Below, piece after piece: positions 48,042-53,774 of a stretch of DNA of 64,000 bases. The notes beneath the pieces were generated by a model. That model saw nothing but the letters and a program-made list of their open reading frames with translations, had not been told where the DNA came from and did not search any database. Source of the DNA: Rothia amarae. Its GTDB lineage: Bacteria; Actinomycetota; Actinomycetes; Actinomycetales; Micrococcaceae. The first letter of the stretch is position 1. Each line of letters starts with the position of its first letter. The stretch is from NCBI RefSeq assembly GCF_014705945.2, contig NZ_CP061538.1, positions 62,001 to 126,000 of the forward strand, given 5' to 3'. Both the position numbers and the translations under genes were made by a program.

Positions 48042-49097
48042 TTGAAAAATTCTTCACAAACCGCCGAACTTTTGCACACCCTCGGGCTTTCTGAAGGGCG
48101 CCACCTGGTCTTTGAGACAGAGTCACGCGCTGAAACACAACTACTAGCGCGAGTCATCATACTTCACGGCAACCATGCCGAAGTAGCGCTCGTCGTCGAC
48201 GAAAAAATAGTCTTAGAAAACGCGAATCTCTCTCATCACTTACCTCACACCCCGGCAGCGGGCGACTGGGTGCTTGTCACCCAAGAGAATAAAACAACCA
48301 CCATTGTGAACGTCGCCCACCGGTATACCGAGCTCGCTCGTCCCAGCGCAGACGGGCTGAGTAGGCAGGCGCTCGCATCGAACATCGATACTGTGCTGTT
48401 AGTGGTCTCAGTGGAAAAACCGCCGAGCCTTAAAGCTATTGAAAAGCTCATGATTATGGGCTGGGATTCGGGAGCGACTCCGGTTCTTGTTCTTTCAAAA
48501 ATTGATGCCTGCGAGAATCTTGCCAAGGAAATGAGCCGAATAGAAAACGTCTCAGTCGGTGTAGAAACTATCTGTTGTAGCGTCAAAACGGGGGAGGGGC
48601 TGTCGGAAATCTCGCAGCTTGTTTCTCAGGGCACGACCACTATGCTCGGTGCCTCGGGCGTGGGAAAGACTTCCCTTCTGAATGCGTTAGAGGGAACAGA
48701 TGCCACCACCTTCGAAGTTCGCCGCGATGGACAAGGACGCCACACCACCACTACTCGTAAGCTTTACATGCTCTCTGGTGGCGGCGTCATGCTGGATGTT
48801 CCTGGCATCCGTTCTTTGACCGTGGATGTCAGTAATAGCGCTGTAGAAGAAACTTTTGCCGATATTTCTGCTCTAGCGAATCATTGCCGATTTTCCGATT
48901 GCCAGCATGACGGTGATTTTGGCTGTGCCGTTGAAGCTGCCATCGACGCCGGAGAATTGCCCGCGCGTCGGCTGGAAAGCTGGCAGGGCGTTCAGCGAGA
49001 ACTTGCCTACCAGCGCAGAAGGAATAACCCGCGCGAAATGGCAGAACAGCGAAAACAGTGGAAGCAACAAACTAAGAATTTCCGCAAAAAGAGCTAG
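48042..49097 (+). CDS. rsgA: Ribosome small-subunit-dependent GTPase RsgA
   Basis: About 351 residues with a TTG start at 48042; the frame stays open upstream to 47829, but that stretch does not look like RsgA. N-terminal OB fold (about 30-105), then a circularly permuted GTPase: G4 LSKIDAC, G1 GASGVGKTSLLN, G2 with GQGRHTTTTRKL, G3 DVPGIRSL. The C-terminal zinc domain has CRFSDCQHDGDFGC. It assists 30S maturation. The basic tail is rich in Arg and Lys. The AT-rich island begins right after its stop. Confidence 0.88.
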   Translation: MKNSSQTAELLHTLGLSEGRHLVFETESRAETQLLARVIILHGNHAEVALVVDEKIVLENANLSHHLPHTPAAGDWVLVTQENKTTTIVNVAHRYTELARPSADGLSRQALASNIDTVLLVVSVEKPPSLKAIEKLMIMGWDSGATPVLVLSKIDACENLAKEMSRIENVSVGVETICCSVKTGEGLSEISQLVSQGTTTMLGASGVGKTSLLNALEGTDATTFEVRRDGQGRHTTTTRKLYMLSGGGVMLDVPGIRSLTVDVSNSAVEETFADISALANHCRFSDCQHDGDFGCAVEAAIDAGELPARRLESWQGVQRELAYQRRRNNPREMAEQRKQWKQQTKNFRKKS

Positions 49098-49267
49098 ATA
49101 AATAGGGTATTCGGATTTTATGGTGGAAAAGGGCCTATAAGTTACTCTTTTCCAATTTCTTAATAAATGTGGAAAAATCTACACCATAGTTGCCTGTTTT
49201 GTCTCGGTCTGTTATTTGATACGAATTGAAACTATCGTATAACATAGCTTTGCTGAATGCACTTGAA

Positions 49268-49372
49268 TTAAATCGTGGCTTCCTCTTTAAACATCATGTC
49301 GGATTCATTTTCTTGTGGTGGTTCTATTGTTTTAAGATCTGGTAGTAATAATAAGTCTGACATATTGTTCAT
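49268..49372 (-). pseudogene. 34-codon remnant resembling an ISL3 transposase N-terminus
   Basis: Reads MNNMSDLLLLPDLKTIEPPQ and continues 14 residues to a stop. The LL-LPDLK pattern recalls the start of ISL3-family transposases, whose C-terminal part survives on the opposite strand at 49595-50284. Too short to be certain. Confidence 0.35.
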
Positions 49373-49430
49373 CCTTTACTACTCTGTGGTGTTATAGTAT
49401 TAAATATAGATTTGATATTGATGTTAAGTA

Positions 49431-49490
49431 ATAAAAAAGTCGTTTAATTTATAATAAAGTTGTTTAATTCATAAAAAAGTTATTTAAAAA
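49431..49490 (+). repeat. Three 20-bp tandem repeats with AAGTyrTTTAA motif
   Basis: The 11-bp motif occurs as AAGTCGTTTAA (49437), AAGTTGTTTAA (49457) and AAGTTATTTAA (49477), exactly 20 bp apart. The same three variants in inverse orientation lie at 51583-51714 on the other side of the Cld gene. Confidence 0.75.
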
Positions 49491-49540
49491 TCACGTGTTT
49501 AGTAGTATGATGGAAGTAATTACTAACACGTGATTTTTTT
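49488..49540 (+). terminator. Perfect hairpin with T-run
   Basis: AAATCACGTGTT pairs perfectly with AACACGTGATTT over a 25-nt loop, followed by T residues. It lies before the transposase remnant and could terminate a lost upstream gene. Confidence 0.6.
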
Positions 49541-49594
49541 GTGCTTACTAATGCCTACTCCCAACAAACTTTTTAGAATTAAAGGAGAAACAAT

Positions 49595-50284
49595 ATGCCA
49601 CATGCCAAAATCGAAATTGATAAATTCCATGTCGTTAAATTAGCCAATGAAGCCTTAGAGAAAATCCGATAAGCTAATCGTCAAAATGTGTCAGCAAAAG
49701 AACGCAGACAACTTATGAGAGATCGTTATGTGCTTCTTACAAGGAGTAAAGACTTAACAGACTTTGATGACCAGATAAAGCTACAAATATGGACTCAAAA
49801 CTTTCCATTGCTTGGACAGGCTTATGAGCTCAAAGAGCAATTCTTTGACATCTATGAAGCCAAATCAATCAACGATGCCTATAAACTCTATCAAAATTGG
49901 CTTTCAAATGTACCTACAGAATTAATGACTTATTTTGAAGATCTGATTAAGGCTATGAATAATTGGGAAGAAGAAATATTCAATTATTTCAATTCTCCCA
50001 TTACAAACGCTTATACGGAGTCCCTGAATCGTTTAATTAAGACAATGAACCATGTTGGTCGTGGTTACTCTTTTCAAGTCCTTAGAGCAAAGATTTTGTT
50101 TACTCAAGGCTATCGTAAAGTTAAAAAGAAAAAGAAATTCAAAAAAGTTGAAGTTACTTTCGGAAAAATGTTACCTGATCAATTCCCAAGTTGGTCACAA
50201 ACTGGTTATGAATGGGTGTATGAAGAAATTTATGGTGCTGATTTTTCCACACTGACTGAGGCTATAGAAGAGGGTACATTTTAA
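49595..50284 (+). pseudogene. Truncated ISL3-family transposase
   Basis: An AAGGAG-preceded ATG at 49595 opens 25 codons (MPHAKIEIDKFHVVKLANEA, then LEKIR) stopped by TAA at 49670; the same frame continues to 50284 with the C-terminal ISL3 region, including FNSPITNAYTESLNRLIKTM (catalytic Glu) and GRGYSFQVLRAKILF. Roughly the first half of a 430-residue transposase, with its first catalytic Asp residues, is gone. Codon use is strongly AT-biased, like Streptococcus/Staphylococcus homologues. Non-functional relic. Confidence 0.8.
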
Positions 50285-50562
50285 ACCCTCTTTCCACACT
50301 ATTTTCCGATTATCCTAAAAAAGTTAAACCATTTGCCTCTTTGGATATGCTTTATCTAAAGGGGGTTACTGTGGTAAGGTAATATAAGATTATACAGCAA
50401 TCGGGCCATATTTTTGAGGAAAATTTTCGTGTATTTGGATAGAATAATAATCGATTGTGAAGGAATATGCTGTTAATTGTGATAGAGTTAGAGTAAAGGT
50501 GCTGGGGGAGACGGAATTAATAATCTACCTGATAAAATATGATTGGATAGGGAGGGAATATT
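50285..50562. other. Intergenic region before the Cld-family gene
   Basis: No gene seen. AT-rich with possible promoter sequences for the following gene; GGGAGGGAA just before the ATG at 50563 is its ribosome site. Confidence 0.45.
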
Positions 50563-51132
50563 ATGTCAAATAAAATGTATTCATTTATTGGTGGATATAA
50601 TGGGTCGTGGAAGGTTGTGTCCATCAACAGCGTGACAGGGAATGGTCTGGAACCCATAGACCGCTTGGAAATAGTCAATGAATTTATTATGCCATCGAAG
50701 GCCGAAACCAAGTGGGTACTACACGGTGTTACAAGCAATTTGTGGTATACCACACGCCAGGAGAAAGAAAAATTGGATGCTAAATCACCTCCTTTGGGTA
50801 GGGAGGGAGATACATGCGCCGCTTTGATTCCGATAAAAAAATCTGAAGCTTGGTGGGAGCTTGCACAAGACGAAAGACGTGCAATATTGGAAGCACAATC
50901 TGAACATATCACGATAGGATTAAGATATTTACCGGCCATCGCGCGTCAGCTGTACCACTCCCATGATCTTGTTGGCGAACCATTTGATTTTCTTACCTGG
51001 TTTGAGTATTCGCCCGCCCATTCGGAAGAGTTTGAAGAGTTAGTGTCTATTCTTCGAGAATCTCCAGAATGGAAGTACGTAGTTCGAGAAGTGGATATTA
51101 GGCTAGTCCTAGATAAACCTTCCATCAACTGA
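50563..51132 (+). CDS. cld: Short chlorite-dismutase-family heme protein
   Basis: 189 residues. The C-terminal half has family landmarks: WWELAQDERRAILEAQSEH, IGLRYLPAIARQLYHSHDL, EPFDFLTWFEYSPAHSEEFE and WKYVVREVDIRLV. His115 is the likely proximal heme ligand and Arg128, 13 residues later, the distal Arg; the Nitrobacter short Cld has the same spacing (His114/Arg127). HemQ-type relatives lack this Arg, so chlorite decomposition to chloride and O2 is plausible. Length fits the short (lineage II) group. GGGAGGGAA supports the start. Less AT-rich than flanking DNA, in an island with transposase relics, so acquired horizontally. Confidence 0.85.
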   Translation: MSNKMYSFIGGYNGSWKVVSINSVTGNGLEPIDRLEIVNEFIMPSKAETKWVLHGVTSNLWYTTRQEKEKLDAKSPPLGREGDTCAALIPIKKSEAWWELAQDERRAILEAQSEHITIGLRYLPAIARQLYHSHDLVGEPFDFLTWFEYSPAHSEEFEELVSILRESPEWKYVVREVDIRLVLDKPSIN

Positions 51133-51304
51133 AAGCCGCCGATTAAAGTAACCATCAAAAGTCATTGATTTATGAGCCCGTTTAGAGAGAATTGGCGATA
51201 TATAAAGTTTCTTATTCCATATAAGAGCGCACTTCCGGAATAAGGATCAGCGCCCGTATTGTACTGTACATAAGAGCCATATTGTTGAGGAAAGGGAGGT
51301 TAAA

Positions 51305-51400
51305 ATGATTTTTACTGACTGGATTTCTTATGTCGCTGTCGGACTTATGGTAGCCGTGTTAATCTATGCAGTTTTTAGTATTTATCTAAAAAAACACTAG
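51305..51400 (+). CDS. 31-residue single-helix membrane peptide
   Basis: ATG with AAAGGGAGG 5-6 nt upstream. The product (starts MIFTDWISYVAVGLMVAVLI, ends YLKKH) is one transmembrane helix with a basic tail. Same direction as the Cld gene, 172 bases downstream. Function unknown; a toxin-like or transporter-accessory peptide is possible, or a remnant. Confidence 0.5.
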   Translation: MIFTDWISYVAVGLMVAVLIYAVFSIYLKKH

Positions 51401-51414
51401 GCTTATATATTGCA

Positions 51415-51546
51415 ATGGCTTTCCATATTGTTTTAGGGATCTTATCGCTCCCATCAATTGGATTGTATGTATTAGGATTGGCTATTATTGAGTTAGTGAT
51501 AGGAATCATAATGACTGTGAAAATTTCATCTAAAAAGAATGTTTAA
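51415..51546 (+). CDS. 43-residue hydrophobic peptide
   Basis: Starts MAFHIVLGILSLPSIGLYVL and ends KISSKKNV; two short hydrophobic segments and a basic tail. No clear ribosome site. It follows the 31-residue peptide by 14 bases in another frame, so the pair could be two coupled peptides or the debris of a larger membrane protein. Confidence 0.35.
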   Translation: MAFHIVLGILSLPSIGLYVLGLAIIELVIGIIMTVKISSKKNV

Positions 51547-51582
51547 GCAAACGGGCGCGATTGTTGAATAAAACTCCTAGAT

Positions 51583-51714
51583 TTAAACGACTTTATTGTT
51601 ATATTTTTAAGTGCAATGAAGTCATCTTCATCAAAAGTTAAATAACTTTATTTTCACCCCGTTCCCATACTAGGACGGGGTTATACGTTTTTAGGTATTA
51701 AAATTAAACAACTT
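51583..51714 (-). repeat. Inverse-orientation copies of the AAGTyrTTTAA motif
   Basis: TTAAACGACTT (51583), TTAAATAACTT (51638) and TTAAACAACTT (51704), each followed by TATT. They are complements of the three motifs at 49437-49487; ATAATAAAGTTGTTTAATT is shared over 19 bases between 49454 and the complement of the third. Between them CCCC/GGGG (51657-51680) forms a terminator-like hairpin. The rest of 51547-51832 has no gene. Confidence 0.7.
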
Positions 51715-51832
51715 TATTATCACTCTACAATTGAAATTATCATTGCTAATTATTTTACTAACATCAATCTCATAAAGCATTTATATGATTGAAAACAAAA
51801 AGCCTATCATTCACTATCCTACAATAAAAAAG

Positions 51833-51860
51833 GGTTATCCCATAGTTACACGGGATAACC
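51833..51860 (-). terminator. Terminator of the metallothionein operon
   Basis: On the minus strand GGTTATCCC pairs with GGGATAACC across a 10-nt loop, followed by CCTTTTTTATTG, 15 bases beyond the metallothionein stop. Confidence 0.88.
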
Positions 51861-51874
51861 TTACAATTATTAAA

Positions 51875-52024
51875 TTATGCAGTTGCACAGCTACAATCTT
51901 TGCACTCGCAAACTTCATCAGTACAGTTGTCTACACATTCTTGACTACAGTAAACTTTTCCTGCTTCTTCTACTTTTGTTTCCCCAAGAAGACAATTACA
52001 GTTCGGTCTCGCACATTTTTCCAT
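51875..52024 (-). CDS. Bacterial metallothionein, 49 residues
   Basis: Begins MEKCARPNCNCLLGETKVEE and ends CECKDCSCATA. Ten cysteines in 49 residues, arranged C-x4-C-x-C, then VYCSQEC, C-x4-C-x-C-x2-C-x-C, the SmtA/BmtA pattern for a Zn/Cd cluster; the KVYCSQEC part matches the zinc-finger-like fold of SmtA. TAAGGAGGTG lies 6 nt upstream. It follows the ArsR/SmtB repressor gene by 16 bases on the same strand and has its own terminator, so it is the effector of a metal-detoxification operon. Confidence 0.88.
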   Translation of the reverse strand: MEKCARPNCNCLLGETKVEEAGKVYCSQECVDNCTDEVCECKDCSCATA

Positions 52025-52040
52025 ACTAAACACCTCCTTA

Positions 52041-52385
52041 TTATTTAGGTAAATCTTCGGTTAAACACCAACCTCGATCTAATAGACTAACGACGCAATT
52101 ATCAACAATTCGGTACCGAATAAAATTGCCTTCACGAATACTGCGAACGATGCCTTTATCAACCAATCGTTGAAGTTGGTTGGAAATGGATTGAGGTTTC
52201 ATTTCAAGCTGTTCTGCCACCTCGCTAACAGATGCATTTGGAGTTCGAAGCAAGGTATGCAGTATTCTAATCCGTGTCCCATTAGAAAGTATTTTAAAGG
52301 TCTCACTTAAACCTTCAGCGTTCTCTGTATCTAATAAGGGGCGTTCCGTTAGTTTTGGTTTTTGTGTCAAGAACCTGAAGTTCAT
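52041..52385 (-). CDS. ArsR/SmtB-family metal-responsive repressor
   Basis: 114 residues. Winged helix with LSETFKILSNGTRIRILHTLL, helix-turn-helix SVSEVAEQLEMKPQSISNQL and wing VRSIREGNFIRYRIVD; two C-terminal cysteines (DNCVVSLLDRGWCLT) could bind metal. It probably represses itself and the metallothionein gene until Zn or Cd binds. The palindrome TCATATATGA at the start codon (52382-52391) is a candidate half of an operator. No clear ribosome site, so the transcript may be leaderless. Confidence 0.88.
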   Translation of the reverse strand: MNFRFLTQKPKLTERPLLDTENAEGLSETFKILSNGTRIRILHTLLRTPNASVSEVAEQLEMKPQSISNQLQRLVDKGIVRSIREGNFIRYRIVDNCVVSLLDRGWCLTEDLPK

Positions 52386-52655
52386 ATATGAGCATCTTTT
52401 TATCAGTAAATTATAACGCCTTAATAAGATAAAATATAATTCCCTCTTGTTTGACTACCTACCCGTGATCACCCGTGTTTGATTTATAATTTTGTGGTAT
52501 TATTATTTTTCCTTAGCATTCCACCAAACAATCCGATTTAACCACTATTTTTTTCGAATTATCAAAATGCTAATTCCACTATATATTCCGAAGACCCGAT
52601 AAATATAACTCGGGGCTCTTGCTCAAAAAGTACACCGTTAGCGCAAAAATACATG
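52386..52655. other. Intergenic region between SmtB-like gene and IS copy 2
   Basis: No gene seen; very AT-rich. It should contain the promoter of the repressor-metallothionein operon. Its right end (52630-52655) is the left half of a palindromic repeat that the IS interrupts. Confidence 0.5.
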
Positions 52656-53557
52656 GAGGCTTATTCAAAAGTAGGAACACACCCACACCCCACCAACTAG
52701 ACAACGGCCCCACCAGCGGCAAAAATAAGAGGATTAAATCACTACAAATAACCTCAAGCCATACCGGAAGAACCGTTGCTCCACCAGCGTACAACAGGGC
52801 TCACACCTCAGCAATTCACCACGCTACTGACAGCCCTCACCTCTCATATCACCTGGGCAAAACCAGGCGGAAGACCACCAGCACTAACCCTGGCCCAGGG
52901 TCTTAAAGTCACCCTTTTCTACCACCGACACAACCTCACCGAAGAACTCCTCGCAGAAATCTTCAACACCTCCCAGCCCACCATCTCACGGACCCTCAAC
53001 ACCGTTGAAAAAGCACTTGAGAAAGCCCTCAGGCCGCTAGAACAGTCTATAGAAAACAGCCTGAAAATCCCTGGTTCACTGGTTATCGACGGCACCCTAA
53101 TTCCCACCTGGAACTGGCGTTCACTAGGAAAAACAAACTTTTCTGGTAAGCATAAACGAGCCGGTTTCAACCATCAAGTGATTTGCACCCTGGGCGGGAA
53201 ACTACTGGCCATCACTGACCCGGTCCCTGGCGCTAGGCATGATGCCTATGCCTTCAAGCATCATGGCTTGGAAAGATATCTTGATGAGAGCACTTTGGCT
53301 GATAAGGGTTACATCGGGTTGGGGCTGGCCACCCCAGTAAGACGCAGCAAAGCCCGCAGGATGCCTGCAGATGTGAAGGTGGTGAACAGGTTCATTAATT
53401 CACGCCGATCGGTGGTGGAGCGGGTTATCGCGCAGGTCAAGACGTGGCGGGTTTTGCATACAGGTTTCCGGCGGCCGCTGAGCGTGTATGGGCGGGTGTT
53501 TGCGGTGGTTCGGGGGTTGGTGTTTTATGCGGCTGGGAGGACTTTTGAATAAGCCTC
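52656..53557 (+). mobile_element. IS5-family insertion sequence, copy 2 (902 bp)
   Basis: Same length, ends (GAGGCTTATTCAAAAGT and complement) and transposase as copy 1, in inverse orientation. ATG at 52653-52655 and again at 53558-53560 is a 3-bp target duplication, confirmed against the empty site at 46743-46800. A 3-bp duplication fits the ISL2/IS1031-like groups of the IS5 family. Confidence 0.95.
52776..53552 (+). CDS. IS5-family DDE transposase
   Basis: 258 residues, identical to the copy at 7775-8551: helix-turn-helix near 50-75, Asp105, Asp176 and Glu215 as catalytic triad, TTG start preceded by GGAAG. It ends inside the right terminal repeat. Identity of both copies suggests recent transposition. 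Confidence 0.93.
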   Translation: MLHQRTTGLTPQQFTTLLTALTSHITWAKPGGRPPALTLAQGLKVTLFYHRHNLTEELLAEIFNTSQPTISRTLNTVEKALEKALRPLEQSIENSLKIPGSLVIDGTLIPTWNWRSLGKTNFSGKHKRAGFNHQVICTLGGKLLAITDPVPGARHDAYAFKHHGLERYLDESTLADKGYIGLGLATPVRRSKARRMPADVKVVNRFINSRRSVVERVIAQVKTWRVLHTGFRRPLSVYGRVFAVVRGLVFYAAGRTFE

Positions 53558-53774
53558 ATGCTCAAGCTTGTACTTTTGCACTAACGGTGTACTTATATGT
53601 GTCGGCTTCCCCTTACTGCGCCCGCTGGGTGAATCCTCAACCTTTTGGGTAAACCTTTCCGCGCCATGATTCCCGTATTCTCCCCGACCAGATAAGGTAT
53701 ATGAGACGGCGCTTTCACCGCGCCACCACAGGGTCACAACGGCGTGACCGTAACCTTTTACTCGGAGGCATATT

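Follow-up and report, generated by a model that had tools for sequence, protein, structure and literature searches.

A Bacillota-type short chlorite dismutase gene in a probable Tn7-like element nested within an ISL3-family metal resistance transposon of a Rothia-like chromosome

The stretch of DNA analyzed (64,000 nucleotides, referred to as the window) contains an AT-rich island in which a gene predicted to encode a short (lineage 2) chlorite dismutase (Cld) lies within two nested insertions (Table 1). G+C content was 33 to 42% in the four 1-kb bins between 49001 and 53000 and 48 to 59% in the other 60 bins of the window, in agreement with a preliminary description of this DNA as AT rich and unlike its flanks. 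The coordinates given there for the gene were correct, but the meaningful unit is larger, comprising the inner element at 49422 to 51729 inside the outer element at 49105 to 52597. The ISL3 relics reported around cld likewise proved to be real transposase remnants; a reading as loose debris, however, gave way to one of two exact insertions, one inside the other, whose target duplications are both perfect.

Table 1. Features of the cld island, with positions in the window
Feature	Position	Strand	Remarks
Outer ISL3-family transposon, 3493 bp	49105..52597	.	Ends GGGTATTCGGA and, reversed, GGGTCTTCGGA
Left copy of 8-bp target duplication GATAAATA	49097..49104	.	At rsgA stop codon
Right copy of 8-bp target duplication GATAAATA	52598..52605	.	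Flanks outer transposon
Outer ISL3 transposase remnant and flank	49105..49421	-	~1.08 kb missing relative to L083
Transposase-less, probably Tn7-like element, 2308 bp	49422..51729	.	Ends TGTTAAG.../...CTCTACA; inverted repeat I1, 83% over 29 nt
Left copy of 5-bp target duplication ATTGA	49417..49421	.	
Right copy of 5-bp target duplication ATTGA	51730..51734	.	
Three tandem ~20-bp end repeats, putative transposase-binding sites, left end	49429..49489	+	Repeat D1
Hairpin just within left end, followed by T run	49486..49538	+	Terminator-like; z -5.1
5'-truncated ISL3 transposase relic	49595..50332	+	Longest open part, 49688-50284, is C-terminal part of transposase
Short (lineage 2) chlorite dismutase gene cld (predicted)	50563..51132	+	189 aa, ATG start, no internal stop; Lys93, His115, Arg128, Glu169; Trp61 unusual
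Two short hydrophobic ORF pieces	51305-51400, 51415-51546	+	Different frames; no domain match over a cutoff
Three spaced end repeats, right end	51583..51729	-	Repeats D2, I3, I4, I8
Metallothionein-like gene, 49 aa	51875..52024	-	Homologous stretch annotated in L084; PF02069 E value 2e-4, below its cutoff
ArsR/SmtB metalloregulator gene (arsR)	52041..52385	-	NF033788, 72.9 bits (cutoff, 55)

The cld open reading frame (ORF) is directly preceded by the Shine-Dalgarno-like sequence AGGGAGG. Its product scored 39.9 bits (cutoff, 25) in the PF06778 profile search proposed in the preliminary description, which makes it a member of that family; no match to NCBIfam was obtained at an E value of 0.001. 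The top matches in the PDB were dimeric short Clds (9gtj, 8e-63; 3qpi from Nitrobacter, 7e-55; 5k8z from Cyanothece, 2e-54), with long Clds ranking lower (2e-12 to 5e-9). An AlphaFold2 model built from 36 sequences (pLDDT, 89.5) returned dimeric Clds as its best 18 Foldseek matches, and among the 50 matches listed the TM scores were 0.85 to 0.97 for dimeric Clds (9gtj, 5k8z, and 3qpi), ~0.5 to 0.7 for long Clds, and ~0.5 to 0.6 for HemQ. The chain thus combines the length of short Clds (~180 to 190 aa) with the dimeric-Cld fold. The earlier assignment to the short Clds was borne out by the profile score, the PDB matches, the fold, and four key residues.

Pfam does not separate Cld from HemQ (coproheme decarboxylase), and the profile score is modest, which would accommodate HemQ or another non-Cld member of PF06778. 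This identity is highly improbable and was rejected on residues, tree, and fold. The window protein has Arg128, Trp98, and Glu169 at columns occupied by Asn or Gln, Tyr, and Ala or Val, respectively, in five HemQ-like rows; it falls in a separate clade of the tree and has the dimeric-Cld fold, and the host genome already encodes a better PF06778 match, a HemQ-like protein at C1:818660-819220 (205.7 bits). The product is predicted to be a short (lineage 2) Cld and not HemQ, with activity on chlorite suggested by family, residues, and modeled fold.

Excerpts of the study by Barnum and Coates (PMC9751292) give Lys92, His114, Arg127, and Glu167 of Nitrobacter winogradskyi as the criteria for calling a Cld. 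All four have equivalents in the window protein (Lys93, His115, Arg128, and Glu169), and the set was identical in all 82 short rows aligned (window included; 73 distinct). The spacing of the His115/Arg128 pair, previously likened to that of the Nitrobacter enzyme, was confirmed by alignment with His114/Arg127, the two residues being 13 apart in both proteins, and the distal column, singled out earlier as a test, held Arg. The statement that HemQ proteins lack this Arg also held: the four key columns were Arg, His, Asn, and Ala in the HemQ-like paralog of the host and Lys, His, Gln, and Val in four Bacillota HemQ-like proteins. The long Cld L131, from a Stutzerimonas chloritidismutans genome, had Lys, His, Arg, and Glu. 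The labels of HemQ-like and long-Cld rows were assigned in the present analysis from residues, length, and kinship.

One substitution sets the window protein apart. Position 61 is Trp, and Arg occupies it in all 72 of the other distinct short Clds aligned, including the sister Paenibacillus protein and four other Bacillota rows, so the change arose on the branch of the window. In L131, the only long Cld in the comparison, this column is Asn, and none of the five HemQ-like rows has Arg there. The site is therefore not one used for catalysis throughout the family; Trp61 may nevertheless weaken the enzyme. This residue was overlooked in the preliminary description. His134, where 69 of the 72 short Clds have Arg, is common to the Paenibacillus protein. 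Known lineage 2 Clds from Nitrobacter winogradskyi (3QPI), Cyanothece PCC7425 (5K8Z), and Pseudomonas sp. (9GTJ) have the length, fold, and Lys/His/Arg/Glu set in common with the window protein, at 49 to 54% identity in structural alignments, but differ in host clade, genetic carrier, and the Arg replaced here by Trp61, and the activity of the window protein is predicted from its sequence.

At least 554 genome stretches encode a relative of the cld product. Among the best 80, which were retained, the nearest was from Paenibacillus alkalitolerans (87% amino acid and 90.5% nucleotide identity), followed by Gracilibacillus, Salipaludibacillus, and Bacillus solitudinis (66 to 67%). In a tree rooted with HemQ as the outgroup, the window cld and five Bacillota rows formed a clade (100/97) with P. 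alkalitolerans as the sister, and HemQ stood apart (100/99), which was the separation from HemQ that the preliminary description had proposed to examine. Long-Cld row L131 was left out of this tree; in a first tree it had fallen inside Bacillota (end branch 10), probably through long-branch attraction, and the tree was rebuilt without it. Six rows contained one stop each, entered as X in the trees; in five of them it fell close to the C terminus of the aligned piece, and in L009 it was at position 30. Constraining the window cld to group with two actinobacterial Clds (Streptomyces and Paenarthrobacter) cost 58 log units and was rejected (p-AU, 0.0025), the clade tested having been chosen after sight of the first tree.

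The gene was present in 1 of 59 relatives of the host, namely its own genome, and in 2 of 394 genomes of the host's class, the second at 56% identity. It is rare among the kin of the donor too (1 of 392 genomes of the Paenibacillus order, P. alkalitolerans itself). Native actinobacterial inheritance was rejected on the basis of the tree and AU test together with this rarity in relatives and class. The horizontal acquisition claimed earlier is upheld by the Bacillota clade, the rarity in kin, and the distinct base composition, and by these sequence comparisons cld is an acquisition from Bacillota. Carriage by phage was rejected, with no match among 50,697 phage records; one relative (55%) was found among viral contigs.

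The outer element consists of two parts (49105 to 49421 and 51730 to 52597) that matched plasmid DNA from Enterococcus faecalis (L083) and Staphylococcus aureus (L084) piecewise at 98 to 99% identity. The enterococcal plasmid carries a full ISL3 transposase gene, ArsR, and a P-type ATPase, and the staphylococcal plasmid carries ArsR and metallothionein. In the window, GGGTCTTCGGA-type ends and an 8-bp duplication are present, and the ISL3 transposase is internally deleted and not intact. Excerpts describing Tn7546 (PMC9782665), an ISL3 mercury transposon carried by Rothia aeria LPB0401, report GGGTCTTCGGA ends and 8-bp duplications, and Tn7546 and related ISL3 metal resistance transposons have these ends, the duplication, and metal resistance cargo in common with the outer element. 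The outer element differs from Tn7546 as excerpted there in bearing arsR and metallothionein instead of mer, in its deleted transposase, and in the cld element nested inside it. No paper on metallothionein as an ISL3 passenger was found in the literature searched, and a search of the host genome for a second copy of the island returned the island itself only. An IS5-type element (52630 to 53592) lies beside the outer element, and two Rothia terrae plasmids carry copies that were 99% identical to its part at ~52643 to 53558. This match underlies the description of the host as Rothia-like, with which its base composition also agrees.

Both plasmids also preserve the site into which the inner element inserted. 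In L083 and L084, TTGATATTGA runs uninterrupted into AATTATC with a single ATTGA, and the window adds 2308 bp and a second ATTGA there. The nested insertions and their order are demonstrated by homology and target duplications at the sequence level. The inner element contains an ISL3 transposase relic, cld, and two hydrophobic ORF pieces. Among the best matches listed, ISL3 copies from enterococci and Bacillus badius shared 92 to 95% identity with the relic. The ORF pieces are probably one decayed small membrane protein gene; an A-rich run lies near the frame switch, which could reflect decay or an error in assembly. No cupin gene was seen in the inner element. No tns ORF was found there, and tblastn with Tns proteins of a Bacilli genome (G222) found none in the window, a search that misses distant Tns proteins (control L126 gave TnsB only). 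Without tnsA, tnsB, and tnsC, the inner element is not an autonomous Tn7-like transposon. It has TGT/ACA ends with repeated sites, an unequal arrangement of these at the two ends, and the 5-bp ATTGA duplication, as would a nonautonomous Tn7-like element.

The right end of the inner element was matched in plasmids of Peribacillus, Priestia, and others, in one of four cld-bearing Bacillota genomes queried (Gracilibacillus), and in at least 15 of 398 genomes of the Gracilibacillus class (E value of ≤1e-6; at most two candidates scored per genome). A record of Klebsiella grimontii plasmid pNY3A (L090; CP079755.1, 218744 to 236934) combines a Bacillus-type right end with Bacillus-like gene names (SAR2788 toxin-like, DUF4030, and sigma factor) and may be foreign DNA or mislabeled. 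Seven right-end regions were examined among the genomes of the Gracilibacillus class, and in G222 the match fell within an array adjoining glmS (TIGR01135, 768 bits; C8:269000-290650, L125/L124). The glmS-side element of this array (276559 to 290644) encodes TnsA, TnsB, TnsC, TnsD, and TnsE domains and has CAACA on both sides; CAACA also stands before 269005. From 269005 to 276553, tblastn gave no Tns match, and a domain scan of five ORFs detected no Tns domain. This part of the array includes a unit at 269005 to 270115, in which a pair of ends surrounds a GNAT acetyltransferase gene (PF12746) and the outer CAACA overlaps the last two end bases, and a unit at 273355 to 276553, with a pair of ends and an IS21-type istA/istB inserted within.

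Both ends of the inner element strongly resembled the ends of these tns-less units: the right end was 82% identical to that at 269005 over 108 bp (97% over the last 30 bp), and the left end was 77% identical to that at 276553 over 127 bp, hairpin region included. The G222 left-type end also has a hairpin at the corresponding place, built from a different stem sequence; it may thus be the fold that is conserved, possibly serving as a terminator. Compared with the tns element, the left end was 72% identical to the glmS-side end over 65 bp (0 of 2,000 shuffles as good). The other end of the tns element (276559) matched weakly, 327 of 2,000 shuffles reaching the score obtained against the left end and 79 of 2,000 that against the right end. 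On end similarity, kinship with Tn7 appears well supported at one end and via the array and weaker at the other end. Since similar ends flank tns-less units beside tnsABCDE at glmS, cld is most likely the cargo of a transposase-less Tn7-like element. The inner element resembles the Tn7-like transposons of Bacilli at glmS in end sequences, repeat layout, and 5-bp junction sequence; it differs from the G222 transposon in measuring only 2.3 kb, in having no tns genes, and in lying in a plasmid-type transposon and not at glmS, with one tns end weakly similar.

The weak match of one tns-element end weakens this assignment and strengthens the possibility that the inner element derives from another TGT/ACA family of DDE transposons (Tn552/Tn5053/Tn402 or IS21). 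Members of these families begin with TGT, carry several sites at each end, and generate short duplications, all of which would fit, as would the lack of a tns gene, the weak similarity of the right-side end of the tns element, and the presence of IS21-type istA/istB in the G222 unit whose left end matches best. That istA/istB pair, however, bears its own inverted ends (L125 11967-11986 and 14124-14143, 95%), distinct from the TGT ends, and an assignment of the inner ends to IS21 was discarded. Next to the left-type end stands CAACA, the sequence also found on the flanks of the glmS tns element, and the glmS-side tns end shares the start TGTTAAGT in a match that beat 2,000 of 2,000 shuffles. 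The arrangement of sites, with three in tandem at one end and three set apart at the other, resembles that of Tn7. An origin in another family is considered unlikely.

Further searches centered on transposition proteins. TniQ was found in 2 of 8 genomes queried and in 0 of 14 controls. PF09299 was matched in none of seven records or genomes sharing the right end; the controls gave no match either, so absence is not implied. Around the Bacillota cld loci L003 to L007, no convincing match to the Tn7-like ends was obtained (best E value, 0.004), and a search for Tns proteins near cld in 84 other loci gave one TnsB-like match (L068), within a Tn402-type tni set.

Whether the gene functions in its present setting bears on a further reading, in which a once-active Cld is now unexpressed or impaired and survives in dead transposons by chance alone. 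Upstream, the similarity to the Paenibacillus locus ends at 50542, so the native promoter seems to have been lost, and no sigma-70-like consensus promoter was found on the plus strand from 50280 to 51320 (3.0 sites expected by chance on both strands). The substitution of Trp for an otherwise invariant Arg at position 61, the decay of both transposases, and the splitting of the neighboring small ORF over two frames also fit such a passenger. On the other side stand the full-length ORF with its Shine-Dalgarno-like sequence, the retention of all four key residues, and pairwise dN/dS ratios below 0.4 against the Paenibacillus gene (0.26 by NG86 and 0.35 by YN00, with pre- and posttransfer time merged). 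A relative-rate count likewise gave no speedup, with 7 changes on the window branch versus 5 on the Paenibacillus branch (P = 0.77; 13 of 25 differences unassignable). Decay to a passenger has a real but minority probability. An ORF arising by chance at 50563 to 51132 was ruled out by the PF06778 score, the PDB matches, the identity to the Paenibacillus gene, and dN/dS.

A source of chlorite could be present in the host. A narG gene (1,561 bits) lies at C1:638720-642376, ~0.5 Mb from cld, and reduction of chlorate by NarG is a possible origin of chlorite. The connection of cld to nitrate reductases or to chlorite in oral products suggested in the preliminary description is conjectural. Excerpts of Barnum and Coates (PMC9751292) describe Cld neighborhoods with such reductases, a NarG included, and a cupin gene as a common Cld neighbor. 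Rothia appears, in an excerpted list, among the genera with PF06778-type genes, cld and ywfI being pooled there. No paper joining chlorite dismutase with oral actinobacteria and nitrate reductase was found in the literature searched.

Taken together, homology and junctions place a Bacillota-type cld in a transposase-less TGT...ACA element with a 5-bp duplication, inside an ISL3 transposon of the type found on staphylococcal and enterococcal plasmids, and place this composite next to rsgA in a Rothia-like chromosome, between the two copies of an 8-bp duplication. The fuller reading, judged likely, is that of a genuine short (lineage 2) cld from Bacillota, predicted to encode a chlorite-splitting enzyme, in a Tn7-like unit nested in an ISL3 metal resistance transposon. 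The ends of the inner element suggest that it would have been placed by TnsABC supplied in trans, after which an ISL3 transposase may have moved the composite. The protein would be a cytosolic heme b dimer with His115 as the proximal ligand and Arg128 on the distal side; family, residues, and fold point to the splitting of chlorite into chloride and O2, which could shield the cell from chlorite produced by NarG during chlorate reduction or encountered from outside.

With both target duplications intact, the route of transfer can be read stepwise, starting from a Bacillota gene, passing through a Tn7-like unit without a transposase and then an ISL3 metal transposon, and ending in the chromosome of a Rothia-like host. 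The locus opens two questions to testing: does pressure from chlorite or chlorate favor genes of this kind in human-associated actinobacteria that reduce nitrate, and do Bacilli generally package single stress genes as cargo of Tn7-like units that lack a transposase? A bolder proposal is that Bacilli harbor a natural mini-Tn7 class, each with a stress gene and no transposase (cld here and GNAT at 269005 to 270115 in G222), which would be moved in trans, cross phyla on ISL3 metal transposons, and in this case give an oral actinobacterium a working chlorite/chlorate tolerance coupled to nitrate reductase; this is speculative and probably not correct in full.

The carriers of Cld found to be known comprise perchlorate/chlorate islands, composite transposons, IS26 regions, and integrons, and the present carriage looks unusual among them. 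In the literature searched, which lies mostly outside subscription journals, no paper joined Cld with a Tn7-like element, Tn7774 matching by name only, and none was found linking chlorite dismutase, Paenibacillus, and a transposon. Transfer of Cld is extensive according to excerpts of Barnum and Coates (PMC9751292), with identical proteins across genera and cupin-cld units with transposases. The plasmid and integron cld genes of Klebsiella and Pseudomonas and the Tn3-type Tn7774, as excerpted (PMC11823659), likewise represent short Clds spread by mobile DNA; the settings examined are IS26 and a class 1 integron with tni and cupin, in contrast to the Tn7-like element inside an ISL3 transposon proposed here. 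In the plasmid set, 529 records encode a cld relative (383 from Klebsiella), all <60% identical to the window protein. Of three plasmid cld genes examined, one lies among IS26 copies, and that of Paenarthrobacter lies near an IS3 and a metal ATPase. Carriage of the integron/Tn402 type was seen for the third, a Pseudomonas bubulae plasmid cld (L146, 8998 to 10584), located beside intI1, cupin, qacG2, and tni genes, and for L068 (5998 to 11292), in which cld lies beside a tni set.
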